64,000 nt of DNA, taken from NCBI RefSeq assembly GCF_003003235.1, contig NZ_PVUE01000010.1, positions 1 to 64,000 of the forward strand, written 5' to 3'. Under the pieces are notes generated by a model, which was not told the DNA's origin, did not search any database, and saw only the letters and a list, made by a program, of their open reading frames with translations. Made by a program: the position numbers and the translations under genes. Origin of the DNA: Antricoccus suffuscus. GTDB lineage: Bacteria > Actinomycetota > Actinomycetes > Mycobacteriales > Antricoccaceae. Shown here piece by piece: positions 57,031-61,136 of the stretch; the stretch's first letter is position 1; each line of letters starts with the position of its first letter.

Positions 57031-58014
57031 CTACTTGGTGTCTGTTCCGTCGTGCTTCGGCGGTACGTCGGTCGGCTTCGGAGAGCTGTCGGCCGCTGGC
57101 CCGCCGTCCTTGGGTGCGCCGTCCTTGGGTGCGCCGTCCTTGGGTGGGCTGGTCGGCGCTGCGGGAGCCGCTGGCGCACCCGGCGTCGACGGAGCCGCTG
57201 GCGCGCCCGGCGTCGATGGAGCCGGGGTGGCGGCTGGTGCAGTGGCGCTGGGTGTCGTAGACGGTGTGGGAGGAGTCACCGGACGGCTCGGTTCCTGCCA
57301 GGTCACGCCCGGGTCGGCGGTCGCCTTGCGGACCGCGACGGCGGCGACGCCGGCGCCAACGAGCAGGAACGGCCACTTGCGCCGCTTCTTCTGTGGCTTC
57401 GCCTTCTTGGCCTGCTTCTCGGCGGCGCGCTGGGCCTTGTCCGAGGCCTTCAGCAGCTTCTTCTTCTGCTTCTTGGTGACCTTCTTCGCGGCTTTCTTGG
57501 CGTCGCTCTTGCGGCTCTTGGCCTCGTCGCGTGCGGCCTCCTTCGCTTCGTTGAGGGCGGCAATGGCGGCGACAGCCTGCTCGCGGGCGGCCTTGCGGGC
57601 TTCCTTGACCGTGACCTTGGCGGTGTCCTTAGCCGATCCGGCGCGGTCCTTCGCGATGGCGGCGGCGTCGGCGCGTGACTCGGCGAACTGGTCGCGTGCC
57701 TCGGACACGTGGTCCTTGACGTAGTCGACGGCCGGTGACAGAGACTTGCGAGCGGTCTTGGCGACATCGGTGGCGGCCGATTTCGCGTCGGAGGCGACCG
57801 GGCTGAATGACTCACGGGCCGACTTGGCCACCCCGCTCGCGGCGTGCCGCGCGTCGGCAACGACGGGGCTGAACGACTCGCGCGCGGTTTTCGCTACGTC
57901 GCTCGCGATGTCTTTCGCGTCGCCGAGCTTGGTGGTGAGTGCAGATTTGGCGTCGCCAAGTTTCTCGTTCACATCATCTATGACTGCATCAGTGTTGTTA
58001 CGACGTCCGAGCAT
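57031..58014 (-). CDS. Lys/Ala-rich repeat protein with one membrane segment and Pro-rich tail
   Basis: About 327 residues. Residues 30-115 contain three copies of a roughly 22-26-residue unit with core AKSARESFSPV/KTARKSLSPA. Then a long Lys/Ala helix (about 115-205), one hydrophobic segment KWPFLLVGAGVAAVAV (about 215-230), and a Pro/Ala/Thr/Ser-rich tail holding 24-bp and 15-bp DNA repeats (PAAPSTPG and KDGAP). ATG at 58014 has GAAGGG upstream. No known family recognised; cell-envelope or nucleoid-associated roles are only guesses. Confidence 0.8.
   Translation of the reverse strand: MLGRRNNTDAVIDDVNEKLGDAKSALTTKLGDAKDIASDVAKTARESFSPVVADARHAASGVAKSARESFSPVASDAKSAATDVAKTARKSLSPAVDYVKDHVSEARDQFAESRADAAAIAKDRAGSAKDTAKVTVKEARKAAREQAVAAIAALNEAKEAARDEAKSRKSDAKKAAKKVTKKQKKKLLKASDKAQRAAEKQAKKAKPQKKRRKWPFLLVGAGVAAVAVRKATADPGVTWQEPSRPVTPPTPSTTPSATAPAATPAPSTPGAPAAPSTPGAPAAPAAPTSPPKDGAPKDGAPKDGGPAADSSPKPTDVPPKHDGTDTK
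57103..57147. repeat. 15-bp tandem repeat inside the Pro-rich tail
   Basis: Three units of GCCGTCCTTGGGTGC (57103, 57118, 57133; the last base of the third differs) encode KDGAP on the minus strand. A copy-number variable tract is likely between strains. Confidence 0.85.
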
Positions 58015-58082
58015 GCGTGGTCCCTTCAGAAGTGGCGGTACTTGCTCCATCTAACCAGTCCTGGGCGTAATTCGCTCCGCGA

Positions 58083-58116
58083 TATGATTTGGTCCATGTG
58101 TTCAGTACGGCGATAG
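58083..58116 (+). promoter_or_regulatory. Promoter and leaderless mini-ORF of the leuS leader
   Basis: TATGAT (58083-58088) is followed after seven bases by ATG (58096), which begins the six-codon ORF MCSVRR ending in TAG at 58114-58116. This is the layout of leaderless genes here, so transcription probably begins at or next to the ATG. The leader RNA then continues about 170 bases to leuS. Confidence 0.55.
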
Positions 58117-58185
58117 CACTGCCAGGTAGGGCGGCATACACGCGTCCCACCGGGTGCCGATGGCTCCCCTCACTGGGTGTGGCGT

Positions 58186-58211
58186 ACCCCGCTGCATATG
58201 CGGGGTTTTTT
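58186..58211 (+). terminator. Rho-independent terminator in the leuS leader
   Basis: ACCCCGC (58186-58192) pairs with GCGGGGT (58200-58206), seven-base loop, followed by six T (58206-58211). It lies 54 bases before the leuS start. An earlier segment GGGTGCC (58152-58158) can pair with GGC plus ACCC at 58181-58189, which would break the terminator: a possible antiterminator. Confidence 0.85.
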
Positions 58212-58265
58212 CGTGCCTCGAACCGTATCGCCGGATGACGCACCAGACGAAGAGGACTTGACGAA

Positions 58266-61136
58266 GTGACTACTGATAACACCGCAGATATCCCGCCGTA
58301 CCGCTATTCGGCGGCGCTCGCGAGTGACATCGAACTGTCGTGGCAGGACCGGTGGGATGAGAGCGGCGTATTCCATGTGCCCAACCCGGTGGGCGACCTC
58401 AGTGATGGTTTCGAAAGCGTCAAGGACCGGCCACACCTGTTCGTCAACGACATGTTCCCTTATCCCTCGGGAGAGGGGCTGCACGTCGGGCATCCACTCG
58501 GCTTCATCGGTACCGACGTCTACGCGCGATTCCAGCGGATGAACGGCAGCAACGTCCTGCACACGATGGGCTTCGACGCGTTCGGGCTGCCCGCGGAGCA
58601 GTACGCCGTCGAGACCGGTCAGCATCCGCGCGTCACGACCGACAACAACATCGCGACGTATCGCCGGCAGCTGCGCCGACTCGGTCTCGGGCACGACCAG
58701 CGCCGTTCGATCTCCACCACTGATGTCGACTATTACAAGTGGACGCAGTGGATCTTCCTGCAGATCTTCAACTCTTGGTACGACGAGGATCAGGGCAAGG
58801 CGCGCCATATCGACGAGCTGATCGCGCAGTTCGAGTCGGGTGAGCGGGCCATCGGCGAGGAACACGGCCCGGCCTTGGCCGGCGCGGCCTGGGCCGACCT
58901 GGACGACGTCTCGCGCCGTACCGTCATCGACGCTCATCGGCTGGCCTACATCAGCGAGGCCCCGGTCAACTGGTGCCCTGGGCTCGGCACCGTGCTGGCC
59001 AACGAAGAGGTCACCCCCGAGGGTCGCAGCGATCGCGGTAACTTCCCGGTGTTCAAGCGTCCGATGAAGCAGTGGATGATGCGGATCACGACGTACGCCG
59101 ACCGTCTCATCGCGGATCTGGAACGGCTGGACTGGCCGGACAAGATCAAGACGATGCAGCGCAACTGGATCGGCCGCTCGCAGGGCGCCGCCGTACGCTT
59201 CGCCACTCCTGCAGGTGATCTGGAGGTATTCACGACGCGACCGGACACGTTGTTCGGTGCGACCTTCATGGTCATCGCTCCCGAGCACCCAATGATTGGC
59301 GCGCTGACGCCCAAGACGTGGCCCGACGATGTACCGGAGGCATGGAAGGGCGGCGAGTCCAGTCCAACCGAGGCCGTCGCGGACTACATCGTGAAATCCA
59401 GCCTTCGTACGGATATCGACCGGCAGGGCGACGATAAAGAGAAGACCGGTGTTTTCGTTGGCTCCTACGCGACAAACCCGCTGACGGGCAAGGCGATTCC
59501 CATTTTCGTCGCCGACTACGTGATGATGGGCTACGGCACCGGCGCGATCATGGCGGTCCCGGGCCAGGACGAACGCGACTGGGCGTTTGCCGAGAAGTTT
59601 GACCTGCCGATCGTGCGCACCGTGCAGCCTCCAGAGGACTTCGACGGCAAGGCGTACGTCGGCGACGGCCCGGCCATCAACTCGGTCCGTGAAGACGGCG
59701 CCTTGGACATCAACGGAATGCCTATCGCAGAAGCGAAACAGGCCGTGTTCGAGTGGCTCGAGGCGAGCGGACTGGGCAAGCCGACGACGACATACAAGCT
59801 GCGCGACTGGCTGTTTAGCCGTCAACGTTACTGGGGCGAGCCATTTCCTATCTTGTACGACGAGACCGGGATGCCCGTCGCCGTACCAGAGGACATGTTG
59901 CCGGTAGAGCTGCCGGAAATCGACAACTTCGCCCCTAAGACAGGGGATCCGACGGACGCGTCCAGCGAACCGGAACCCCCGCTCGGCCGCGCACCGGAGT
60001 GGGCGTCGGTCACTCTTGACCTTGGCGACGGGCCCAAGCAGTACCACCGAGAGCTCAACACGATGCCACAGTGGGCCGGATCGTGCTGGTACGAGATCCG
60101 CTACACCGACCCGACCAACAGCGAGCGGTTCGTCGATCCAGCGCTTGAGGAATACTGGATGGGGCCGCGGCACGAGGGTGACACCGGCGGCGTGGACCTC
60201 TATATAGGTGGCGTCGAACACGGCGTACTTCACCTGCTGTATGCGCGTTTCTGGCACAAGGTGCTGCACGACCTCGGTCACCTCATTAGTGAAGAGCCGT
60301 TTCGGCGACTGTTTAACCAGGGCTACATCCTGGCCGCGTCATATACCGATGCGCGTGGAATGTATGTCAAGGCAAGCGAGGTAGAGGAACGCGACGGCAA
60401 GTATTACTTCGACGGCGCCGAAGTCACCCGCGACAACGGCAAAATGGGCAAGAGCCTGAAGAACTCGGTTAGCCCGGACGAGATGTACGAGCAGTATGGC
60501 GCCGATACGCTACGGCTGTACGAGATGTTTACCGGTCCGATGGACCAGTCCCGGCCGTGGGAAACCAAGGCCGTTGTCGGACCGCAGCGGTTGTTGCAGC
60601 GCATCTGGCGCAACTGCATCGACGAGGAGACCGGAGACCTGCGGGTGGCCGACGTCGAGATCAGCGATGAGTCACTTCGCCTGCTGCACAAGATCATTCT
60701 CGCTGTGCGTGACGGGATGTCGACGTTGCGCTACAACATCTCGATCGCCAAGCTGACCGAGCTCAACAACCACATCACCTCGACGTACGCCGAGTCACCT
60801 CCACGCGCGCTGCTGGAGCCGCTAGTGCTGATGCTCGCGCCGCTGGCACCACACATCGCCGAGGAGCTGTGGCAGCGACTCGGTCACGACCAGTCGCTCG
60901 TCTGGGCGGACTACCCAGTCGCGGACGAGTCGCTCGCGAAGGACGACTCGATCGAGATTCCGGTGCAGGTCAACGGAAAGGTCCGTGCGACCGTCGAGAT
61001 CGCGCCGGACGCCGACCGTGACGTCATGGAGACGGCGGCGCGCTCAAGCGACAAGATCGCGGCCGCCATCGACGGCAAGGAAATTCGCAAGATCATCGTC
61101 GTACCAGGGAAACTCGTCAACTTCGTAGTTGGCTAG
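58266..61136 (+). CDS. leuS: Leucyl-tRNA synthetase
   Basis: A 956-residue class I synthetase. HIGH-type motif HVGH at residues 73-76, KMSKS-type motif KMGKS at about 726, and an editing domain between (about 260-430) with [12 protein letters not shown]-terminal anticodon-binding and Leu-specific domains are intact. It charges tRNA-Leu. GTG start with AGAGGA nine bases upstream. The 3' end overlaps lipB by 20 bases. Confidence 0.97.

Follow-up and report, generated by a model that had tools for sequence, protein, structure and literature searches.

The leader upstream of leuS in the window, by which we mean the whole 64,000-nucleotide stretch of Antricoccus suffuscus DNA analysed here, is probably (with a probability of about 0.7) a sensor-less, degenerate descendant of a leaderless Leu attenuator, leuS being expressed by constitutive read-through past the terminator. 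Comparison with relatives at the sequence level shows that its terminator and promoter are homologous to those of this attenuator, and that the Leu codons and a significant A:B hairpin have been lost. The functional consequence of these losses, in turn, is what we infer.

Architecture of the leuS leader

The -10 box of the leader promoter is TATGAT (58083-58088, plus strand), which aligns with GCGGTATGATG / GCGGTATGCTG in the family members L002, L004 and L005. A spacer of seven bases separates it from an ATG at 58096, and our comparison of leuS upstream regions shows that a TANNNT box 6-8 nt upstream of the leader start is the rule throughout the order. The ATG opens a leaderless mini-ORF of six codons (ATG TGT TCA GTA CGG CGA TAG, 58096-58116, plus strand), which encodes MCSVRR. 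The initial annotation had described this box, the gap and the ORF, and had pointed out that the latter contains no Leu codon; the sequence agrees on each count. MCSVRR occupies the position of the canonical Leu leader peptide in relatives, and four of its five codons after the ATG are minority synonymous codons, GTA (13%) and CGA (8%) among them. Short ORFs of this leaderless type (TANNNT, 6-7 nt, ATG or GTG, 4-30 codons) occur six times on both strands of the 64 kb, and only about 0.01 are expected on the plus strand of the 215-bp intergenic region. Thus, the placement of the mini-ORF beats chance.

The mini-ORF is followed by a diverged stretch (58117-58185, plus strand), which in relatives is the site of the Leu codons and of the A:B hairpin, and which aligns to our covariance model R1, described below, with helix A:B deleted. 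About 70 bases downstream of the mini-ORF stop lies the intrinsic terminator, ACCCCGC-TGCATAT-GCGGGGT plus T's (58186-58211, plus strand; hairpin 58186-58206, T-run 58206-58211), which is matched by R1. Its folding energy is -14.0 kcal/mol and exactly 54 bases separate its end from the leuS start codon (GTG, 58266), so that the GC hairpin and T-run reported at this distance in the initial annotation were indeed found. Only one other place in the 64 kb has a perfect, G+C-rich hairpin of 7 bp with five T behind it. The gene itself (58266-61136, plus strand) encodes a leucyl-tRNA synthetase of 956 amino acids that is 76-77% identical to those of family members, and it is the sole full-length leuS match in its own genome. 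By eye, the sequence from the terminator to leuS shows no TANNNT box.

Two further features border these elements. Directly downstream of the T-run is the motif CGTGCC (58212-58217, plus strand), common to relatives as TTTTTT[c/g][a/g]TG[t/c]C, whose T and C are conserved to at least 90% in 44 aligned leaders (A1); the motif is kept across families despite its position beyond the termination point. On the other side, upstream of leuS, CCATCTAACC (58048-58057) recurs in L004 and L005 and, as CTATCTAACC, in L002. Its minus-strand reading contains GGTTAGAT, which may serve as -10 box for the divergent gene 57031-58050, whose product is an Ala/Lys-rich protein with KDGAPKDGAPKDGGP repeats close to its C-terminus.

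A leaderless Leu attenuator precedes leuS across actinobacteria

We compared the leuS upstream regions of 138 loci from the same order and from other actinobacteria. The rule applied to find leader ORFs required a TANNNT box, 5-8 nt, an ATG or GTG, and then a short frame in which Leu codons are adjacent. In 99 of the 138 regions it detects, just downstream of the -10 box, a leaderless ORF whose Leu codons stand in tandem (M..LLL..P[C/R], then stop). An automatic rule calls a hairpin plus T's downstream in 86 of these 99 leaders, with the caveat that in a handful of cases (L019, L022, L032, L146 and L172 among them) the called hairpin differs from the visible CCCC/GGGG. Typical leader peptides are MAGVFLLLTEPC, MTGGLLLPQPC and MSTARLLLSKPR. 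The stop codon usually falls within segment A (GCCGTGCTGA). The pairing partner of this segment is segment B (TCAGCACGGC), which in the typical form abuts the terminator CCCCTC-loop-GAGGGG-TTTTTT. Both helices, A:B and the terminator, covary in the alignment of 44 leaders: 92.9% of the cells are paired, compared to 86.9% in shuffles, 54 compared to 16.5 cells are double-changed and the covariation score is 0.251 compared to 0.139, values that 0 of 500 shuffles reach in each case. Moreover, 10 pairs are changed on both sides (6.0 in shuffles; 1 of 500 as high), and sliding the helix partners results in far lower covariation values. None of 12 canonical leuS leaders has an Rfam match above threshold.

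The system found in the 99 regions is already known from Streptomyces as the leuS attenuator with the leader peptide LeuL2. It was predicted in 2005 (PMC1262725), and in S. lividans LeuL2 is MRAVRLLLSEPR, leaderless by RNA-seq, with a terminator before leuS (PMC8079986). By analogy to the ilvBNC attenuator of C. glutamicum, whose antiterminator and terminator hairpins adjoin one another at the base (PMC11857589), A:B would be the antiterminator of the canonical leaders. We also considered translational coupling via a second ORF downstream of the terminator (in the window from GTG 58213 to a TGA over GTG 58266). This candidate was rejected, since a second ORF ends over the leuS start in 27 of the 68 leaders that have a start codon there, which is close to the third that reading frame alone predicts and thus no evidence of coupling.

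The window leader keeps the terminator half of the conserved structure

The covariance model R1 was built from the 44 leaders. In the window it matches 58166-58217 with 19.3 bits (E 0.0042 in 64 kb), a match that spans the terminator, the T-run and CGTGCC and in which helix A:B is deleted; searched against the 4.68-Mb genome, it reports this locus as the only match (E 0.31). By its E value over the whole genome the match is modest, and it is carried by the terminator half. These results bear out the attenuator layout proposed in the initial annotation, in that the position, the promoter and the terminator are homologous to those of the widespread leaderless Leu attenuator of leuS. Conservation and covariation, which had been named there as the check, hold for the terminator but for neither the antiterminator nor the content of the ORF.

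Our sample of the family comprises five genomes from three genera, one of them from the genus of the window. The R1 scores are 54.9 bits for L003, 34.9 for L004, 19.3 for the window (L001), 16.8 for L005 and 12.3 for L002. Of the four members besides the window, L003 and L004 keep Leu codons, and their leader peptides MTNHLRQRIYGLLR and MVVRRAVRGALLL, respectively, are canonical, the latter with LLL as specifier. The Leu codons are lost in the window, in L005, which lacks tandem Leu codons, and in L002, which has little sequence between the -10 box and the terminator. MCSVRR has GTACGGCG in common with the L004 peptide, and on the strength of this one relative it may represent the N-terminal remainder of a formerly longer leader peptide that was truncated by a stop. 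In the LeuS protein tree the five family members group fully (100/100), and within this group the window branches off first, with support of 87/93, which falls short of the strict threshold; the Leu codons of the window and those of L002 and L005 may thus have been lost in separate events. The sequence between promoter and terminator is unconserved even within the family. A hairpin of -14 to -20 kcal/mol with a T-rich tail is kept in all five members, including the three without Leu codons.

In another family (f3), the leuS leader of L185 lacks any Leu ORF; its hairpin, AGCCCTCCTG/CAGGAGGGCT, is strong and is followed by a short T-rich tail. This is a second case, apparently independent of the first, in which the sensor was lost and the terminator kept. 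A similarity search found no similar leader in plasmids.

No switch hairpin above chance in the window

The initial annotation had also claimed an upstream segment able to pair with the 5' arm of the terminator. The best such pairing in the leader amounts to -13.5 kcal/mol, but it is equalled or beaten by 68% of dinucleotide shuffles and the claim does not hold. The same is true, as far as testable, for a functioning alternative stem: a hairpin that spans the interval between mini-ORF stop and terminator is not above chance (27.5% of shuffles match it), and neither is one placed, as in the canonical leaders, directly against the terminator (21-47%). All three shuffle tests for an antiterminator in the window are therefore negative. 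The abutting hairpin of L005 is likewise not above chance, being matched by 75% of shuffles. When the same test is applied to canonical leaders, in contrast, 73 of 75 have an abutting hairpin stronger than all of 20 shuffles, with a median z of -4.7. Finally, going by usual footprints, a ribosome at the mini-ORF stop would not reach the structure that adjoins the terminator, because the stop lies too far (about 70 bases) upstream of it.

A scan of the window yields RNase P and three tRNAs only, and no T-box or other Rfam riboswitch at gathering score. For none of the mechanisms suggested in the initial annotation, which were stalling on Cys/Arg codons, a ligand or a separate small RNA, did we find supporting evidence.

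Function of the leader and alternative readings

In relatives, the first transcribed base is also the first base of the short leader ORF, which contains two to four Leu codons. According to established attenuation logic, slow reading of these codons would leave segment A free to pair with B beside the terminator, favouring read-through into leuS, and during fast reading the ribosome would cover A and the terminator would form. In the window, transcription would start at about 58096, and it would be of no consequence whether the mini-ORF is translated or not. Since this ORF has no Leu codon and ends about 70 bases before the terminator, and since A:B is unrecognisable, the state of leucyl-tRNA charging should not be relayed to the terminator by a ribosome on MCSVRR. 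At most, the terminator would hold leuS output at a fixed level by stopping a constant share of transcripts, and leuS would be expressed by read-through. What speaks against this sensor-less remnant is that the terminator before the only leuS is intact and strong rather than decaying, which could mean that control persists; that weak alternative hairpins of -18.8 to -26 kcal/mol are present, albeit not above chance; and that the R1 match is modest, resting as it does on the terminator half.

The attenuator might alternatively have been retargeted, with the Val-Arg-Arg codons (GTA CGG CGA) as the new specifier and leuS following the supply of Arg/Val or the general translation rate. The intact terminator, the placement of these codons relative to the stop, which is that of the Leu codons of relatives, and the minority status of GTA and CGA would all fit. 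However, the window has no antiterminator above chance to relay a stall, and VRR is also found in the N-terminal part of the L004 peptide, where LLL is the specifier, so that it looks inherited. Moreover, we know of no biological link between LeuRS and Arg. Retargeting to Val/Arg has no positive support and we regard it as unlikely; we are similarly doubtful of the wider notion that the leader has been re-specified, such that the Val-Arg-Arg ORF, or leaderless translation itself, controls the kept terminator and the supply of LeuRS follows a non-cognate signal. It is also quite improbable that the leader is still a Leu attenuator whose sensing ORF lies elsewhere, either in the ORF from GTG 58098, which is in a different frame, has scattered CTG/CTC/CTG codons and continues through the terminator, or in that from ATG 58156 (MAPLTGC...). 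Both frames are open and R1 aligns 58166-58176 (CCCCTCACTGG) to the Leu-codon segment CTCCTTACCGG, but this segment contributes little score and tandem Leu codons are absent. In addition, 58156 has neither a -10 box at leaderless distance nor a Shine-Dalgarno sequence, and GTG 58098 is nine bases from the -10 box, a rarer spacing than seven.

The terminator might instead be under selection regardless of the ORF, setting a low constant output of leuS or shaping the 5' end of its RNA. Its retention in five of five family members would be explained in this way, as would that in L185, but on sequence alone such fixed-level attenuation is inseparable from slow decay, and other lineages without Leu ORF (L149, L153 and L159 of f14.g51; L025 and L030 of f7) show no such terminator. 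We consider it improbable. Finally, promoter and terminator would delimit a transcript of about 115 nt, which might be a separate small RNA with targets of its own. Such an RNA is, however, a by-product of every attenuator; it has no Rfam match, and the interval that would encode it is the one that is unconserved even within the family. This makes a dedicated small RNA highly implausible.

Comparison with known attenuators and intact leaders in the same genome

The window agrees with Streptomyces LeuL2 (MRAVRLLLSEPR; PMC8079986, PMC1262725) in the gene controlled, in a promoter whose predicted start is that of a leaderless short ORF downstream of the -10 box, and in a rho-independent terminator close before leuS that is homologous by covariance model. 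It differs in that the ORF has only six codons and none for Leu, where LeuL2-type leaders have at least two in tandem, and in that the A:B hairpin from the stop region to the terminator-abutting segment is unrecognisable. The three-hairpin attenuator of C. glutamicum ilvBNC (PMC11857589) belongs to the same class of leader, in which a short ORF begins with the transcript or right beside its 5' end and the antiterminator hairpin adjoins the terminator; its gene and codons are different, and the window has neither specifier codons nor a significant antiterminator. The Cys-rich leader ORFs of actinobacterial cys operons (PMC1262725) are also short ORFs ahead of an amino-acid gene. However, they contain runs of the cognate codon, whereas in MCSVRR there is just one Cys codon and the cognate one, Leu, is absent.

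Two other leaders of the same genome (G000) are intact. The leuA leader (L193, minus strand, 3451-3404 of contig C3) is leaderless, encodes MYGALLLLSGRDETL with five Leu codons, and is close in form to S. lividans LeuL1, MRFGLLLLSCRGEGL. The ilvB leader ORF (L195, plus strand, 1200-1235 of contig C2) encodes MTPRQNLVVIH, and in the 90 or so bases downstream of it a hairpin, GCGCGTC/GACGCGC, directly abuts the terminator ACCCCC/GGGGGT-T6. Its -10 box does not fit TANNNT; by its Leu-Val-Val-Ile codons it is a probable attenuator responding to branched-chain amino acids. Judged by these leaders, the genome retains Leu sensing outside leuS, and among the three leaders examined the loss of the sensor is thus specific to leuS.

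The comparison yields a covariation-supported model of the leuS attenuator for many actinobacterial families, for which no Rfam family exists. Reading the window leader as a remnant would account for an attenuator-like layout with the wrong codons, and its interest is mainly evolutionary: a leaderless amino-acid attenuator would have been dismantled within one bacterial family, losing its sensor codons and switch hairpin before its terminator, and the leuS leader would have degraded while those of leuA and ilvB stayed intact in the same genome.
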